DNA from: a virus
Virus record (IMG/VR): IMGVR_UViG_3300006874_000001
Location: 1-64,000 of that record
Reading direction: 5' to 3' (one strand)
Length of the DNA stretch: 64,000 nucleotides
In this document: positions 5,529 to 60,227 of the stretch, piece after piece
How the letters are laid out: each line of letters opens with the position of its first letter
Position numbering within the stretch: the first letter of the stretch is position 1
Position numbers and translations under genes: made by a program
Notes under the pieces: generated by a model
Seen by the model: the letters and a program-made list of their open reading frames with translations, nothing else
Database searches by the model: none
Told to the model about the DNA's origin: nothing

Positions 5529-5737
5529 TCTACCTTGTTCTTAGCTAACAACAACTTGATCTCCTGGATGTCTTTCAGCAACTGCTTGACGTCATCCTTA
5601 AATTCTTTATTGTCAGCTTCCAAGGTGTGAACTCTTGAGCTAAGTTTATTGTAATCTGCTTGAAACTTCAACCACCCGCCTACAAGAGTACTAGCCACTA
5701 CTAGAAATTCGAAGTGAGATAGGTATTCTTGCATCAT
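5525..5737 (-). CDS. Small membrane/coiled-coil protein of the lysis cluster
   Basis: A 70-residue protein with a short hydrophobic N-terminus (FEFLVVASTLVGGWLKF) followed by a heptad-like coiled coil (residues 30-66). It overlaps the holin stop (ATGATG) and the next gene by 4 bases, indicating coupled translation. Possibly an accessory holin or a structural partner of the following spanin-like protein. Confidence 0.6.
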   Translation of the reverse strand: MMQEYLSHFEFLVVASTLVGGWLKFQADYNKLSSRVHTLEADNKEFKDDVKQLLKDIQEIKLLLAKNKVE

Positions 5738-6177
5738 TTCTTGGCTTTTTCTATGGTTCTTCCTGCGAAGTAGGCTCCGAAGGCGGTTAGCATGAGTATC
5801 TCCAGCAAAGATACGTAGGAATTTTTTACGTTAAATGGCAGATTATCAATGGAGTCTGCAATCATGGTTGCCATAAACATGACCATCAGGCAGATAAGAG
5901 TCACGGGTCTAATGTATTTTGCGAGCTTGACGTCGCTCCCCATGTCTGCCTTCCAGCGTTCAGAAACGTTGTTCTGAAACTGAACCTCAGCGTCAAGTCT
6001 TGCCTTGACTTCTTCTGGGTCCAAGTCAGGATATTGCCTGTCAATCAGGTTCTTTACAACACCTAGTCCACCGCTGTCTGGAAGCAGGTCCCCAACAGTT
6101 TCGAGTACGGATGGTGCCTTCTCCCTGAGCCACTGCCCAAGCTTAGTGTCTCTGATCTTCTTACCTTCTTTCATCAT
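5734..6177 (-). CDS. Holin, 3TM gene-transfer-agent type
   Basis: The 147 residues include EVQFQNNVSERWKADMGSD and KLAKYIRPVTLICLMVMFM, then a second hydrophobic stretch ending GAYFAGRTIEK. This is the recognisable layout of the GTA-type three-TM holins (Holin_3TMs), common in phages and gene transfer agents. It would permeabilise the inner membrane to release the endolysin. It starts inside the 3' end of the giant gene. The M15 endolysin lies far away at 50.4 kb, so the lysis genes are split. Confidence 0.75.
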   Translation of the reverse strand: MMKEGKKIRDTKLGQWLREKAPSVLETVGDLLPDSGGLGVVKNLIDRQYPDLDPEEVKARLDAEVQFQNNVSERWKADMGSDVKLAKYIRPVTLICLMVMFMATMIADSIDNLPFNVKNSYVSLLEILMLTAFGAYFAGRTIEKAKK

Positions 6178-9100
6178 CGTAGATCCTTTGCATGATGTCT
6201 AACACCATGATTGTGTGTTTCTTAAACATCTTGTCTTCACCAAACTCTTTAATACCGCTGAAGTCTCCAGCAACGTTATTCATAGCTTCTAGCTTGTCTG
6301 CATCGCTCATGCTCTTGTACTCTTCAGAGTTCACAAGCTTTTCAAGAGCCTGATATCTCTCTCTATTTGCTACAGCTGCCAGATCGTTGATGTCTTCGAT
6401 CGAAAATCTCACCTTGCTGTTCATGAACTCCTCATCTTTCAAGAATGAGTACTCCTTTCCAGTAGCTTCAAGGGCAGCAAGCTCTTTCTTGGTCTTGATT
6501 TTTGGAGGTGCGATCCTACGAGTTGTGGCAAAGTATGGTGTTCCGCAGGCGCTAGTCAGCTCCTCCGTCTGTTCGAACAGTCTCCACACCTCGTTCGACA
6601 CTGGGTCGGCTTCTCCTTGTCTTGACTTGTAGACGTCGAAAAGGTAGTACCCGCCAGGGACATCACCTCTAGGACGCTGCCTGATTGGCTCGCCCTTCCA
6701 GTTCACTCTGATTGGAGCGTCACCCAAACCAAATGTTCTGTCTAGAAATGTGTACCTGAATCGCTGCATAATCCTTTCCTCCAGAGGCAAGTTTGGATCC
6801 ACTCTAGTGTCAGGGAGGTACTCTCTGTTTTGCTTGTACAGCGCAGACAGTGTGTTTGGAAGGATGGTAGAAGAGACTGCTTGGAAAGTGGAGCCAGACC
6901 AACGCTCAAACTTTCTCTCGAAGTCGTCAGCATCGCCAGCAGAGATGAGCTCTGTAAAGGAGCTAACACCCTGCAAGAAGCTTTGGTCCATCATGTGAGC
7001 CATGGTGCTAAAGGCGGTTACTCCAAACGCATCCCTGAGCATTCTGTTCGCGATGAACGGATCTTCACCGAGAGATGGGTCAGCTGCATTTGTTGCCTTC
7101 ACTCTGGCGCCGATGATCGCTCCGAAGATACCCAGCTTCTGGTAGCTCATGAAGTAATCATCTGGTTGCTTAGCTGCGGTAGCGCCAGCCAAGAACCGCT
7201 TGAGAGCTGAGATGTTGATGGAGTTAGGAGGGAACTGATCGTAAGCAATGTTTCTCTCTTCGTCTTCTCCAGCTTCCAGCGCCCCAGAAATAATTCCTTC
7301 TCTAATCATAAGCTCTGTGGCATATGCAACGCTCTGACCTACAATCAACTTACCCATGTTTTGAGAAGCTGATCTGGCATCACCTTTCTTCAAATCAGCC
7401 ATGATCCTTGGGATAGCAATAACTGGTGAGGTGAAAGTGAGTGTCTCATAGAGAATGTTCGCTGGAGTTCTCACGTAAGGCATCTGGCTTCGAATCAAGA
7501 ACTTAGCAAACTGTTGGCCGTTGACCCCAGGGAGGAATCCAAAAATCTGACCTGCAGCCTTCTCGACGAAGTTTATGAATCCTTCACCAATGTTAGAGGC
7601 TACCCCTTGCTCCTGGAACGTCAACTTTCTTCCCTCTTGCTCAGCCCGTTGTCTCACGTCCATTGGAGGGTGCTTAAGAAATCTTCTCAGTTCTTCACCT
7701 TTGAGGCCTCTTGACAAAGCCTCTTGATAAACCTCAATTCCTTCAACACCTCTTCTGAATGGAGTATCACCAACGCCGAGGAATCTGAACATTACCTCTG
7801 CAGGGATACCAAGAGTGCCATTAATAAACAGCTTAAGTCTCTGGCTAAGGCTAGACTTACCATCAGGTCCAAGAGGAAGCTCAGCGCCCTTACCGAATGC
7901 TGAGAGAATAGATCTAAATGGAGCAAAGCCTCTTTGGACCCTCCACTCTGTTACGTCCTTCTCTTGTCCAGTGACAACCGCCTCTAGAGATTCCACGAAT
8001 CCAGCCCCAAACTTTCTCAACCCATACATGTAGGCATTGACTGAGTAGTTTCTTTTGATCGGTGAGTCGAACCCAAACAGGTTAAGCGCCTTCTCAATAG
8101 GGAGGGCGATGATGTCTCTAGGGATCATCAATGCTGCGTTGTACAGGTTTGCAATCACGTTAGTGACCTGAGACATAGGGGTCAAAAGGTTACCCTGAAC
8201 AAGCATGGACCCAATGTCACCCCAGCCTCTTTCAATCACAGCGTTTGTGAACGTCTCCATGCTTCGCTCTGCTTGCTTCAGTCTCTTTACAGCTGTTTCA
8301 AGCTCTGCGTCAACTTCTTCACCTCTGATAGCTCTCTCCATCAAGTCTCTTGCAGCTGCATGACTTTCCATCAACTCAACAGACAGAGCGGTGAGCCTTT
8401 CTTTCTGAGCATCTGAGAGCTTGTTTCCGCCCCTCTCAACCTCTTTCTCGATCATCATGATCATTCCAGCAGGCGTGGACGACTTAAGCTCAGCAAAGTG
8501 CCTCAAAAGACGTCCAGCGGTTGTACCGATCTTGGATAGCTCTGCGACGATGCCAGGAATGGAGTCTGGGTTACCGTCAGCGACAGCCCTGTTGATGAGC
8601 TCAACGCCAGCAAGAACACCCATGTCGTCATTGCGCTGAGATAGCCTGCCTAAAGACTCGTCAGTCAACAACCCCATAAGCTCACCACTATCCATAGACG
8701 AAAGCTTATCCTTAGCCTCTTTCAGGTTTTGAGTGGAGATGTAGTTCTCAGGGTTCTGAAGAATCTCAGATCTAACGCTGTCGTAAAGAACAGCCGTTCT
8801 GCCAGCTGTCTGTCTGATTCTAGCAGAGGCTCTACCCTGCCTGATAGCCTCCTCAGCATTCTTAGCAACCTCAGACTCATTGAGTGCAACCTGAGAATTG
8901 ATAGGCATAGAGTCGTACGCAGCCTTAGCCTCAAGGTCTGATTCGTACTTCACGCCAAGAACCGCCTCTGAGTAAGCTCTAAAGCGCTTGAGCGCGGCGT
9001 CATACTTAGGACCGCGCTTTACTCTTTTCGCTCTCTGCTCTTCTGTTTCTGTGCGACCAGCAGTAACAACAGGGTCGTCGTAGTCAAAGTACTCGATCTC

Positions 9101-12100: not shown

Positions 12101-15100
12101 GTTGGCCCGAAGATTTTTAATGTATTGCTCATACTTGACCTGAGCTCTAGTGACAACAGGGCTGTTCTTGCCTAAGATTTCTGCAAGCTCTCTCGCAAGT
12201 CGAGCACGCCCTGTTGGATTCATCTCAGCGAGCATAGGGCTGATTGCAGTGTGGATAACCTCCTCAAGAACCGTCTCTTCAAAAGTCTTTTTCTTCTGCA
12301 GGCCAGTGTCAGTCAACATGTTCGTAAGGATGTTGTCTACAGAGATGTGAATGACTCCATCGACGACATACCCGCCTGCATTTTCCTGGAACGCATCCAT
12401 AGACTCCTTTGAGTGCATACGAAGCTTGAGGCCTGGGTGAAGTGCTCTCAATGCCTTTAGAGCGTTGGTCAAGAACTTTCTTTGCTTCTCGTTGAGACCG
12501 CTGAGGTCGTCTTCTGAAATTTCAAATTCACCGTTTTCGTCTGAAGTGTACTCATTGTACTTTCCTTCCAGACCCCTTGTAGAGGTTCCGTCAACCATGA
12601 CAGTGTTCCCTTCAACAAACTGATCCTTGCTAATAGCCTCGCCCTTTGAGTTTTGAAAGGTTTCGGTCAAGGTCATGTTGAACTTCTTGACGTTCCCGTC
12701 TTTGTCTTTAATGGCAGAGAAGAAGTCTGTCTCAGCCTCAGCGTCGTTTACACCTTCTGCAAACAGCTGCATGTCACCATTAGCTTTAACCAACCCCTTC
12801 TTGTGAGCTACAGTTTCTTGTTCGAACATAGCAGCGAACTCCTGTGCTTGCTCGACAGTCATACCCTCAACAAGAAAGCTATTCTCACCGTTCTGGTACT
12901 TACCTTTGACTTCGTGGAACACCAATCCCTGAGACTCCAGCCACTCTCGGGCCTTTTGGTTTCTCGCTTCGTTCTCTGCATCACTGAGCTCAGCCCTACC
13001 CATCGGGTTTTCAGCTGTCAGAACGGCAAATTCATCAGAAGCAAAGATAGAATCAATCTCTTCTTTAGTCAACCCTGAGTTCTCCATGTTCTCGATTGCT
13101 GTGGCAATCCAGGAGTCGGTCCTTCTTGCTTTCGATTCTTTGACCCTTGTGGCTACAATATCACCAGCAGCTCTCACGTCACCACTCTGTGTGACTGGAA
13201 GCCCAAACATTCCGTCAAGGTGAGCAGCTGCCTGCATAACTCCTGACAAGTTCTCGTCGGTATTGTCTTCTGCAAGTCTCTTTTCTGCTGCCTCTAGGTC
13301 CTGCCTAGCCTTCACTGCAGCATCGTACTCTGCTGCGGCCTGGTCTCTTGCTTCTCTAGCCGTTCTTAACGCACCTTCATCAACGCTTTGCCCGTTGGCA
13401 ATTCTTTCTTCCAGGATTGCTACGGCATTTTCAGCAAGTGTCTTCTCGGTTGTCAACCTGTTCTCTGCCTCTTGGCGAAGCATACCGCGAGCGACGTCAA
13501 GCTCATCTTGAGTCATCTCTGTAGACTCACCCTTGTGCTGATTGGTCAACTCGGTGCGCTCCCTTACTAGCTGTTCAAACGCGGCCTTGTGAACGGCTGC
13601 TTGCTCAGGGTTTACTGAGCGCTGGAACTGTCTGTACGAGTTCTCGATTTTGACATCAAGCTCGCTGATCTTGTTAAGAACATCTGGGTGTCTTACAGCT
13701 AGCATATCGTAGAAAGGTCTGTTAGCTTCAGCCTTCTCTTTGATGGTCTTCTGTGTGTTCTGGATCTGAACCTCAATAGCTCTTCTTTCTTTTGAACCAG
13801 GCTCAAGGTCCCTTGCTTGCTTCTCAAGATTGGCCAAGATATCTCTGGCTTCAAACTCTGCTTGGATATTGACCATGTCTCCACGAGCAAACATAGCTGC
13901 GCGTGCCTGACCGAACTTAGTACCGCTGTACTCGAACACACCACCAGCCAGAGCACCGACAATAAATGAGTCAACCACTCCGTTAACAAACTCATCTGTA
14001 TTGAGTCGTTTGCCAGTGATCATAGCGTTACCGATCATAGTTGTGGCTGTGGTAGCTACCTCCTCCAACCCCTCTGTAAGCCCAGAGAGACCGTAGTGCT
14101 TAAGCATGCCAGTAGCCATCTCCTTGGTCATGATTCTTCCCTGAGCCCTGGTAAGAGCGGTTGCGCCGCGAAGGCCTTTTTCTGCAGCTGAGGCTGCTCT
14201 ACCGAAGATAGCGCTACCAACCAAGGCAAACGCAGTCTCAGATCCGCCAACAAGCATTGAAGATCCAAGCCTTTGTAGATCGTTTTCAAAAATCGGGGCC
14301 TTTCCGTGGGCAACAAGGATCTCATCATCAGTCTTTGTGCTAGAGAATTGATTTATCCCTGATGAAACACCTAGAAGGCCAGCGCCAACCATAGGCAGTC
14401 CTACTGCTGAAGACGCTACAACCAAGCCAACGGTAGGCAAGGTCTCGGCCAAGCCAACAGCAGACTGTCTAAATCCGTTGTAGATGTCTCCGTTAGCGAA
14501 AGACTGACCGATTCCCATTGGAATCACGGTCATCTCGGATCTCATCTTCTCCGCTTCGAAAGCGTTTTCCCTTCTGACCTGTGCTGCAGTATTCCCTCCT
14601 GTAAACTCATCTTTGACCGATGCGTACAGATACTCTGCTGGGTTGACAACCAAGTCAATAGTCCCTTGATAGAGTCCGCGTGCCATGTCACTAACAAGCC
14701 ACTTCTCGTTGTATCTGCCGTTGCCATCAAGATCAAGGGCAAGGCCATGCTGGAAGAACATGTAGTCATCAAGCTTGTCGATGATATCTTGATCCTTGTC
14801 GTCTCCAACGGTGATGCCTTCATCACCGAGAACCCCCAAGAACTCCTGCTTATACTTACCGAGCTGCTCTCTCTGGAATTTCTGATTTACTCGTCTCAGA
14901 CCAACAGCTCTAAGAACTTCTTCGTAGTCTTCGTAAGACATTCGAAGGCCTTCGATTTTGGTTGTAACCTTTCCGTTACCATCCAACGATGAGCTTTCAA
15001 TAGGATCGAACCTGCCTTCGTAACTGCCCATTTGCAGTTCTTTCATGCCGCCTCCAGTCCACACCCCTCTTGACTTGAAATCACCTATAACATCAGAAAT

Positions 15101-17080: not shown

Positions 17081-17949
17081 TAGTCAAACTGAGGTTGATT
17101 GAACACACTACGAACGGCGCTGTACAGCCCCATTAGATCTCGCTGAGAAGGTCTCTTCTTTTTGGAGATAGCGTCCTGAGCTTTATCGATTTTAGATGCC
17201 TGTTGAGGGTTGAGGATGTATTCACCACCAGTCATCTCTCCGATCTTAGCCCCTTTCTGTACGATGTCGATAGGGTTTCTTTTGTGACTAAACTCGCCAG
17301 GGGTCTTCTTTACCTTAGCGCCGTTCCTAGCCTCACCGCCAAACCTGGCGTCAAGCAGGCTAGACCCCATGCTCATAATGGACTCTCTCTGAGCGTCCTT
17401 AGCAGCTCTTTCTCTGAGAGCAGCCTCTCTACGCTCTAGCTCTGCAGCCTGCATGTTCTCTTCGGCTGTAGCCTCGTCTTGCTCAGCCCCCACAAGCTTT
17501 CTCGCTGCAATCTTCTTATCCATCTCAATGTTTTTAGAGAGAGCAGTGTCTTCAAGACCTGCCAGCTTGCTTTCCGATTCAATCTCTCTATCCAAGTCGG
17601 CTTGTTTGGCACTCTCTTCAGCCTGTGCGGCTCTTTGCGTAGTTCCAGTGATCCCAGCTGCCAAGGCTCGCGGGTCCTGTGATAGCGCAGAAAGCTCCAT
17701 GGCCTGTCTGGCTGCGATACCAGAGGTGTCCGTTCTTTTCTTTCCAGCTTGCGCTAGATCTCGCTGCGCTTGAGATACCCGTGCGTCAAACTTACCTGCT
17801 TCTTCTTGAGCGTAAAACTTGCTTTGCTCTTGCTTAGCCTTAGCCTTTAGCGCTTTCTGCCTGAGCTTGTCGGCGCTGGCCGTCGCAGCGTCTTGTCTTG
17901 CGTACTGACCAGCTGCTCTTGACCGTAAGATATCACCAATGAATCCCAT
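17080..17949 (-). CDS. Virion protein with GGEYILNPQQA motif
   Basis: A 289-residue protein. The N-terminal two thirds is an Ala/Glu/Lys-rich coiled coil (residues 10-200). The C-terminal part contains MTGGEYILNPQQASKI, a motif found at the end of many phage internal or tail-tip proteins. It lies between tail fibre-type genes and the ejection protein genes. Probably an internal virion protein; the function is inferred from place and motif. Confidence 0.6.
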   Translation of the reverse strand: MGFIGDILRSRAAGQYARQDAATASADKLRQKALKAKAKQEQSKFYAQEEAGKFDARVSQAQRDLAQAGKKRTDTSGIAARQAMELSALSQDPRALAAGITGTTQRAAQAEESAKQADLDREIESESKLAGLEDTALSKNIEMDKKIAARKLVGAEQDEATAEENMQAAELERREAALRERAAKDAQRESIMSMGSSLLDARFGGEARNGAKVKKTPGEFSHKRNPIDIVQKGAKIGEMTGGEYILNPQQASKIDKAQDAISKKKRPSQRDLMGLYSAVRSVFNQPQFD

Positions 17950-56527: not shown

Positions 56528-56599
56528 AATGTTAAAAGTGTTAATTTTCTTGGAATCTAGAACCTGACCTCGTATCTTTGGGGTCGAATCAAACATCAA
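56525..56599 (+). promoter_or_regulatory. Early promoter module, copy 1
   Basis: TGAAATGTTAAAAGTGTTAA (56525-56544), then 5 bases, TTG (56550-56552), 20 bases, TATCTTTG (56573-56580), then the leader motif GTCGAATCAAACATCAA (56583-56599). Same spacing as copy 2 at 57647. Confidence 0.85.
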
Positions 56600-56603
56600 A
56601 CAC

Positions 56604-56795
56604 ATGACCTATACACAGACCTGCGAGTTCATCGCACAGCGAATCATGGAAGGACGCGACTACGCCTTCATCAACGACAGCTTCATCAATCTCCCTACAC
56701 CACAGCGGTCAGGGACATACACACAACAGCACACATACGCCCTGCTCAAGGCTCGTGAGATTGTGGATAACCTACGGGGTGTTCAGGCACACTGA
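56604..56795 (+). CDS. 63-residue early protein upstream of the ribozyme
   Basis: A 63-residue protein (begins MTYTQTCEFIAQRIMEG) with a helical end KAREIVDNLRGVQAH. It directly follows promoter copy 1. Its last three codons and stop form the 5' strand of stem I and the first core bases of the hammerhead ribozyme, so self-cleavage would cut its mRNA 34 bases past the stop. No family recognised. Confidence 0.6.
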   Translation: MTYTQTCEFIAQRIMEGRDYAFINDSFINLPTPQRSGTYTQQHTYALLKAREIVDNLRGVQAH

Positions 56796-56835
56796 TGAGT
56801 CCTGATTGGACGAAACGCCGTGAGGCGTATGTGTC
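56786..56835 (+). ncRNA. Type I hammerhead ribozyme
   Basis: Stem I GGCACA (56786-56791) pairs with TGTGTC (56830-56835; one G-U). Core CTGATGA is at 56792-56798. Stem II GTCC/GGAC has a TGATT loop (56799-56811). Core GAA follows (56812-56814). Stem III ACGCC/GGCGT has a GTGA (GNRA) tetraloop (56815-56828). Predicted cleavage is after A56829 (GTA, a valid NUH). All universally conserved core residues and the G10.1-C11.1 pair are present. Stem I can be extended beyond a 2x2 internal loop (GTT 56781-56783 with AGC 56838-56840), offering the usual partner for a tertiary contact with loop II. The open end is at stem I, so it is type I. Confidence 0.92.
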
Positions 56836-56869
56836 AAAGCAAACGTGGCTTTGAGGGGCGTAGCCCGCA

Positions 56870-56937
56870 AGGTGTGATGGTGTAACAGGATAGCACGCCA
56901 CTATGTGGAGGTGCGGGTTCGAATCCCGCCACATCTA
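56870..56937 (+). tRNA. tRNA-like element with collapsed anticodon arm (non-canonical)
   Basis: Acceptor AGGTGTG/CACATCT (one G-U) with discriminator A, D arm GTGT/GCAC around AACAGGATA, and a perfect T arm GCGGG-TTCGAAT-CCCGC. The anticodon region is about 5 bases too short: CCAC-TAT-GTGG, with no 7-base loop. No CCA is encoded. An alternative reading gives loop ATGTGGA with anticodon GTG (His) but leaves no variable loop. Either a decayed tRNA or a functional tRNA mimic. Confidence 0.5.
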
Positions 56938-56966
56938 AAATTTGTCAAACATCAAAAACATTAACC

Positions 56967-57140
56967 ATGATAAACATTTGGGAGTACTACACATACTTCG
57001 GACGTGACCGCGACGACTGGGCGGGGCCTCACACCGTGAAGGCATCCACTCGTGATGAAGCCATCCGCAAGGCACAACATGACTGCTTTGGCTCATGCGA
57101 AACAGTTTGGAAAAAGACATTCAAAATCGTAAAATCATGA
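56967..57140 (+). CDS. 57-residue early protein
   Basis: Short ORF (MINIWEYYTYFGRDRDDWAG) ending WKKTFKIVKS. Leader TCAAACATCAAAAAC, as at other early starts. It overlaps the next gene by ATGA. The WEYYTYFGRDRDDWAGP..VKASTRDEAI pattern is a small alpha/beta fold; no family. Confidence 0.55.
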   Translation: MINIWEYYTYFGRDRDDWAGPHTVKASTRDEAIRKAQHDCFGSCETVWKKTFKIVKS

Positions 57141-59465: not shown

Positions 59466-60083
59466 ATGCAATCAGTACAAGAATCCAAGCAAGAGCTTGA
59501 AGCGGCTATCCGCTACGCAGAGAACGCTATCTCCTCTGCCCAAGGCACCATCGAGTCGATGGAGTTTCGCCAAGAGATGGCACAGAAGAACTACCAAGAG
59601 CAGACAGGGCGTGAAGAAGCGCTGACCAAGCAGGTGCAAGAGCTCGAATCCAAGGTGCAGGGTCAGTACGACGACATCGTCATGCTCGAACGTGAGGTTG
59701 CCAACCTCAAAGAGTGCCTCAAGATAGAGACGGCAGCACTTGAGCGCATTCGAGAGGACATCCCTACCATGCCCGTCATCCCCAAGGCTGTTGCCATCGC
59801 CATCTTCCGTGAGGGTGTGGCACATGGTGTAGCCAACGCTTGCGATGAGATTGACAACGACGCTGGAATCAGCATCGAAGAGAGCGAATACGTTGGAGGG
59901 TTCGAGGTATCGTTCAGCCGACACATCGACCTCTCTGACCACCTCGACCTTGACTGGATGCGCGACAAGGTGGGTGACTACGATGAAGCATCTGTCATTG
60001 AAGCCCTCAAGAACCTGTGTGCAGACAAGGAGTTCGAGTGCCGTATCCACGGGGTTGACGACCAAGAGCAAAAGGTTAATTGA
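59466..60083 (+). CDS. Coiled-coil early protein
   Basis: A 205-residue protein: residues 1-100 form a heptad coiled coil (QSVQESKQELEAAIRYAENA), followed by an alpha/beta domain of about 100 residues with VAHGVANACDEIDND and HLDLDWMRDKVGD. The ATG at 59466 with leader CCAAACATC is chosen over a long upstream frame. No family recognised. Confidence 0.6.
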   Translation: MQSVQESKQELEAAIRYAENAISSAQGTIESMEFRQEMAQKNYQEQTGREEALTKQVQELESKVQGQYDDIVMLEREVANLKECLKIETAALERIREDIPTMPVIPKAVAIAIFREGVAHGVANACDEIDNDAGISIEESEYVGGFEVSFSRHIDLSDHLDLDWMRDKVGDYDEASVIEALKNLCADKEFECRIHGVDDQEQKVN

Positions 60084-60094
60084 TGTTTGGCCTT

Positions 60095-60131
60095 GAGGGG
60101 CTTGTGTGACTGAAACGTCAGTCCGCCCCTC
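60095..60131 (+). other. Strong stem-loop before the second tRNA-like element
   Basis: GAGGGGC (60095-60101) pairs with GCCCCTC (60125-60131); inside, GACTG/CAGTC closes an AAACGT loop. There is no T-tract, so a processing or leader structure is likelier than a terminator. It lies 9 bases before the tRNA-like element. Confidence 0.6.
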
Positions 60132-60140
60132 TTCACTTTC

Positions 60141-60212
60141 AAGGGAGCGCAGTCGGTGCGTACGTCTGAGTTGTAGGCAGACGGCAGTTGTGTTCGAATC
60201 CCAACCTCCCTT
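60141..60212 (+). tRNA. Second tRNA-like element (non-canonical)
   Basis: AAGGGAG/CTCCCTT acceptor-type stem and a D arm GCGC-AGTCGGT-GCGT without the two usual linker bases. The anticodon-type stem CGTCTG/CAGACG has a 9-base loop (AGTTGTAGG), and the T arm loop TTCGAAT is closed by a stem with a T-C mismatch. If an A-G pair closes the loop, the anticodon would be TGT (Thr). Encodes no CCA. Likely a degenerate tRNA or mimic. Confidence 0.45.
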
Positions 60213-60227
60213 CAATTCAATTCACAC

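Follow-up and report, generated by a model that had tools for sequence, protein, structure and literature searches.

What a self-cleaving ribozyme contributes to a phage is a question raised anew by a hammerhead that lies between two small early genes, upstream of a tRNA-like structure (TLS), in an uncultured phage; the role of hammerheads in phages has been described as an open question of the field (PMC6155905). The window analysed here is a stretch of 64,000 nucleotides from the viral record IMGVR_UViG_3300006874_000001 (64,478 bases). Its terminase shares 48% identity with that of an uncultured podovirus and 34-41% with those of Flavobacterium elemo phages and Cellulophaga phages. Because these relatives infect Flavobacterium and Cellulophaga, the comparison supports a Bacteroidota host, in agreement with the first-pass annotation of this DNA.

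Features of the locus are listed in Table 1. Against 0.51 expected by chance, the window has two matches to a Bacteroidota-type promoter, each just 5' of an early gene, and the common early-gene leader TCAAACATCAA was present in three copies (0.2 expected); the label early is based on promoter matches and gene order. Throughout the phage group of the window, early genes carry the leader CAAACWTCAA before the ATG, and this leader directly follows a promoter, a hammerhead, a TLS or a long hairpin. The small ORF that ends in the hammerhead had no PHROG match and no homologue in the loci examined.

Table 1. Features of the hammerhead locus and of the second RNA element in the window
Feature	Position	Strand	Description and basis
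Bacteroidota-type promoter match	56550..56580	+	TTGG-N19-TATCTTTG; for the predicted hammerhead-carrying transcript
Common early-gene 5' leader	56589..56599	+	TCAAACATCAA; motif count
63-codon early ORF	56604..56795	+	TGA stop 56793-56795 in hammerhead core; second in-frame TGA after it
Type I hammerhead ribozyme	56786..56835	+	Predicted cleavage A56829/U56830; sequence, folding, covariance model, Markov control
Hammerhead stem I	56786-56791/56830-56835		6 bp, one G-U
Hammerhead core CUGAUGA	56792..56798	+	Read from sequence
Stem-loop II	56799..56811	+	Stem 56799-56802/56808-56811, loop UGAUU; folding and covariance model
Hammerhead core GAA	56812..56814	+	G56812 = G12; read from sequence
Stem-loop III and cleavage-site A56829	56815..56829	+	Stem 56815-56819/56824-56828, loop GUGA (GNRA)
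5' part of unit	56830..56869	+	UGUGUC, hairpin 1 (56835-56853), hairpin 2 (56856-56866), GCA; conservation and covariation
tRNA-like structure TLS2	56870..56937	+	Rfam tRNA 36.2 bits; comparison with relatives
Second early-gene leader copy	56945..56955	+	9 nt after TLS2
Downstream small gene	56967..57140	+	57 aa; start codon 30 nt past TLS2 acceptor stem
Second RNA element	60074..60213	+	Anti-leader UUGAUGUUUG, hairpin, TLS1; 3' end abuts TLS2 unit in L231 and L232

A complete type I hammerhead

The window contains a complete type I hammerhead. Both the sequence and its folding bore out the core bases, three stems, GNRA loop and GUA cleavage site given by the first-pass annotation. The minimum-energy fold of 56781-56840 was the hammerhead secondary structure, with stem I open and stems II and III closed by loops, and the CUGANGA...GAA core and UH cleavage site (A17 being A56829) were located between the three stems. 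The first-pass annotation was right about the class and the point of cleavage. A covariance model, R1, built from 50 other phage hammerheads with the window left out, gave a single match on both strands of the window (56784-56838, 62.7 bits, E=1.5e-14). The core together with three stems was matched once in the window by a strict motif search, whereas 150 second-order Markov windows gave no match. A theta (HDV-like) ribozyme, a nested double pseudoknot cleaved at its 5' end, was rejected as the identity of this RNA on the grounds of its hammerhead fold.

Two further details had been expected. The strong Rfam hit did not appear: no hammerhead model reached its gathering score in a scan of the window, a threshold that is curated and not a defining feature, and RF00008 scored 24.4 bits against a gathering score of 48.5, in the wrong (type III) register. 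This check fails because of the model and not the RNA; thus, taking the lack of a hit to any model as a refutation would mislead for a real hammerhead. The internal loop assigned to stem I, a putative partner of loop II in a tertiary contact, corresponds to the AG/AA that flanks the 6-bp stem on the outside. The A on its 3' side was invariant in 50 of 50 relatives, and the AG on the 5' side is partly a selection rule.

It is very improbable that the motif is an inactive relic, maintained by constraint on coding or structure but unable to cleave. Such a reading could appeal to the cleavage triplet, which is GUA here and GUC in most relatives; however, all core bases are intact, the independent model match is strong at the above E value, and three relatives have intact hammerheads with differing stem III sequences.

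The stop codon of the small ORF falls inside the core, as had been claimed, and this would suit a ribozyme gated by translation, in which folding is controlled either by a ribosome at the stop or by an 11-nt complement in the upstream ORF (56731-56741 with 56824-56834). No other hammerhead of the 158 compared had a complement as long (6 of 2000 triplet shuffles), and this one competes in folding. When 110 nt of upstream mRNA were included, the hammerhead was not the favoured thermodynamic structure; yet the same was seen for about half of the family, so that predicted occlusion is common, and the complement lengths of the family were barely above control and not a family trait. We consider gating of this kind improbable.

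Hammerheads at the ends of phage genes

The position of the hammerhead at the 3' end of an ORF had been regarded as an oddity; on the basis of the present survey, it is the rule in phages. Reports of hammerheads between phage cistrons go back to 2011, when these ribozymes were proposed to divide long phage transcripts into mRNAs of one gene each; tandem copies showed cleavage both in vitro and in E. coli (Perreault et al., 2011, PMC3088659). A hammerhead pattern scan of viral contigs gave at least 120 loci, where by our estimate a handful would be expected by chance, and a script that also required paired stems identified 169 hammerheads across 94 loci examined. In 50 aligned hammerheads (window excluded), 99.9% of cells were paired, a percentage favoured by the picking of rows by stem rules, and 12 of 16 pairs showed double changes. 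Among 143 non-redundant phage hammerheads with enough flank, 114 had an ORF stop at -40 to +45 of the core, compared with 21% of random positions. The stops peaked at -9/-8, -3 and +1, and the next ATG after the cleavage site was most often found at 20-27 nt. The +1 register of the window is shared by 22 hammerheads, because CUGAUGA itself contains UGA codons.

Several hammerheads per phage genome were already known (PMC3088659); one 39.8-kb contig carried 14 copies. Two cultured phages also carry members of the family: Cellulophaga phage phi19:3 and Flavobacterium phage elemoA_7-9A, which infects Flavobacterium sp. BAL314 and has its hammerhead at 17287-17349 (-). In elemoA_7-9A, the annotated ORF gp68 (NC_055852.1:17275-17382) runs antisense over the hammerhead and is probably spurious. 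The window copy has the core, the open stem I and the location between small phage genes in common with the type I hammerheads of phages and prophages (PMC3088659; Rfam clan CL00010). It differs in that its cut is predicted to define the 5' end of a unit with a tRNA mimic, and in being missed by the Rfam models.

Type I hammerheads were also observed in which the cleavage site coincides exactly with the first nucleotide of a tRNA-Tyr (GTA) gene of the phage and one strand of stem I is the 5' strand of the acceptor (L059:8399-8442; L063:6483-6524 and 6633-6673; L256:6877-6920; L257:7078-7121; further examples in L255, L258, L259 and L262). At the first L063 copy and at L261:2319 the tRNA was not called by ARAGORN, and all abutting tRNAs that could be identified were tRNA-Tyr. 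Judging from this arrangement, the hammerhead would make the mature 5' end of the tRNA without RNase P. The retron-Eco7 defence degrades tRNA-Tyr, and T5 phages supply this tRNA (PMC11555353). The open-access literature searched contained no report of a hammerhead at the 5' end of tRNA-Tyr, which is no proof of novelty, and no hammerhead was found upstream of the similar tRNA-Tyr genes of Stenotrophomonas phages.

A conserved unit downstream of the cleavage site

Cleavage after A56829 would begin a conserved unit composed of UGUGUC, two hairpins and a TLS. The tRNA-like RNA reported downstream of the hammerhead is this structure, TLS2, which has a 7-bp acceptor stem, a D arm, a 5-bp T stem with a UUCGANU loop and discriminator A; it encodes no CCA. 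A normal 17-nt anticodon arm, with a 5-bp stem and 7-nt loop, is replaced by a dwarf arm (CCAC-UAU-GUGG, 56898-56908), which indicates that TLS2 is tRNA-like and not a decoding tRNA. ARAGORN did not call it. The annotated release of this RNA by the ribozyme holds only in part: the cut does lie upstream of it, but a conserved, structured leader of 40 nt is left on the mimic, so the tRNA-like part would still need RNase P if it is released.

The hammerhead, 40-nt spacer and TLS also occurred together in L048, L123 and L124 (L001 and the window represent one phage, and L001 was excluded from counts). The segment equivalent to 56830-56869 was near-identical in these three, and within the group there was a compensatory G7-C66/A7-U66 change and, in L048, an anticodon stem capped by GAAA. 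Across the helices of the unit, 100% of cells were paired, with 25 double-changed cells compared with 10.6 in shuffles. No cultured phage with the hammerhead and TLS unit was found by blastn, and a genome scan for prophage copies yielded three matches in unrelated bacteria, approximately the chance number.

TLS2 gave weak, sub-threshold Rfam matches to two tRNA-like substrates of RNase P, MALAT1/mascRNA and tmRNA, with which it shares a 12-bp acceptor/T stack, an altered anticodon arm and a longer transcript (PMC4919913); its phage origin, the ribozyme in front and the lack of a tag ORF set it apart. An alanine-charged mimic or mini-tmRNA was also considered, as the window has G3-U70 and A73. 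L231 has G3-C70, and C73 replaces A73 in L123, L124 and L230-L232; alanine charging is unlikely because these features are not conserved.

Unrelated phages have other anticodon-deficient TLSs in the same slot, between a stop codon 7-8 nt upstream and an ATG 21-28 nt downstream, with no anticodon arm or one of 4 bp and 3 nt (L125, L143, L174, L181, L184, L211 and L224; also L164, L171, L219, L208, L197 and L218). In Porphyromonas phage BK068092 (L266:382-449; host P. gingivalis), an unannotated tRNA-like structure with a T arm resembling that of the window was located between a stop codon and a transposase gene.

Hammerheads and tRNA mimics at the same predicted RNA start

A scan with the pattern GGGCNTAGCCCGCAAGGTGT detected the unit in three more phages, L230, L231 and L232, where no hammerhead precedes it (L233 matched the pattern only, not the unit). 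In L231 and L232, the sequence immediately before UGUGUC is CUCCCUU-C, the acceptor and discriminator of another mimic, TLS1; in L230 it is CUCUGCU-AC, and UGUGUC is one nucleotide off the 3' end of a tRNA mimic. Between the hammerhead group and these three phages, both sides of hairpin 1 had changed at five of six pairs, with the register kept. UGUGUC is thus retained also in phages that have no use for it as a strand of hammerhead stem I. The point at which UGUGUC begins matches a predicted RNA end, which the hammerhead would generate in four phages and a tRNA mimic in two or three others, a comparison based on seven sequences from uncultured contigs that represent about two independent states. 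Since relatives have the 5' end of the unit where another mimic terminates, hammerhead and mimic look exchangeable as devices for making RNA ends.

These observations bear on plain intercistronic punctuation, in which the hammerhead does nothing except separate two mRNAs and the adjoining TLS is independent and follows by chance. In its favour, the majority of phage hammerheads are simply located between genes, with no TLS in the vicinity, and the prophage proposal of 2011 is a precedent (PMC3088659). However, four phages with partly different flanking genes share the conserved 40 nt from cleavage site to mimic, and the unit still begins with the six nucleotides UGUGUC in phages that lack the hammerhead. 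Punctuation alone is rather unlikely to be the whole explanation.

We regard it as likely that the hammerhead sets the 5' end of the unit and trims the upstream mRNA, and that processing of a tRNA mimic does the same job in relatives. The hammerhead, placed between two cistrons of an early transcript, would cleave itself after A56829. The upstream small mRNA would then terminate at a fixed point shortly after its stop codon, with the hairpins of the hammerhead as a 3' cap, and the same cut would set the 5' end (UGUGUC, with a 5'-OH) of a conserved structured RNA ending in the tRNA mimic. Host RNase P at 56869/56870 and an RNase Z-type activity near 56937 would probably process the mimic, and the downstream mRNA would be left starting just before its leader. 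RNase P is known to measure the acceptor/T stack and to accept tRNA-like parts of other RNAs (PMC4919913), and the phage mimics keep a 12-bp stack. In this scheme, we infer cleavage in vivo, the action of RNases P and Z, the persistence of the unit as a stable RNA and the importance of trimming the upstream mRNA. A broader proposal is more tentative: within the lineage, hammerheads and anticodon-deficient tRNA mimics may be interchangeable devices for making RNA ends, the hammerhead having perhaps taken over formation of the 5' end once the unit no longer followed another mimic.

In the window, the TLS1 element is located away from the hammerhead unit. The 5' start of the TLS1-bearing RNA is the exact complement of the common early-gene leader, and such anti-leader RNAs were found at L036:6844-6980, L048:6116-6266 (-), L230:2644-2790, L231:12068-12275 and L232 (-) near 12650-12858, as well as in the window. 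Leader and anti-leader covary (CAAACATCAA/TTGATGTTTG in the window, CAAACTTCAA/TTGAAGTTTG in the others), with one change only. From this complementarity, the TLS1-bearing RNA is a candidate antisense regulator of early mRNAs. Flavobacterium phage elemoA had one leader-like copy after a hammerhead and no anti-leader, so the leader system was not found there. Near the TLS1 array, tRNA-like structures of 130 nt were present (L230:2792-2921; L048 (-), reverse complement of 5672-5799), with a 7-bp acceptor, the T arm GGUGGUUCGACUCCACC and about 60 extra nucleotides in a tmRNA-like layout. A long hairpin, TATATATACTCTCTCTGAACGTAGTGAAGAGAGTATATATAC, recurs just 5' of early leaders, in the slot of the hammerhead or TLS, in L036, L048, L124, L230-L232 and L245-L247; we suggest only that it could be an RNase III-type site.

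Self-cleaving RNAs beside tRNA genes in phages are also known from the theta ribozymes, HDV-like RNAs in gut phages of Bacteroidota and Bacillota that were proposed to trim the 3' trailers of tRNAs (PMC10879173). The window hammerhead, by comparison, is predicted to act 5' of a non-decoding TLS. A conserved RNA with a defined start 3' of the cut, together with another processing element at that same start in relatives, makes the function testable, the prediction being one 5' end generated by two mechanisms. If this is true, phages use non-decoding tRNA mimics as processing signals, and the exchange of hammerhead and tRNA mimic among relatives hints at why phages carry hammerheads.
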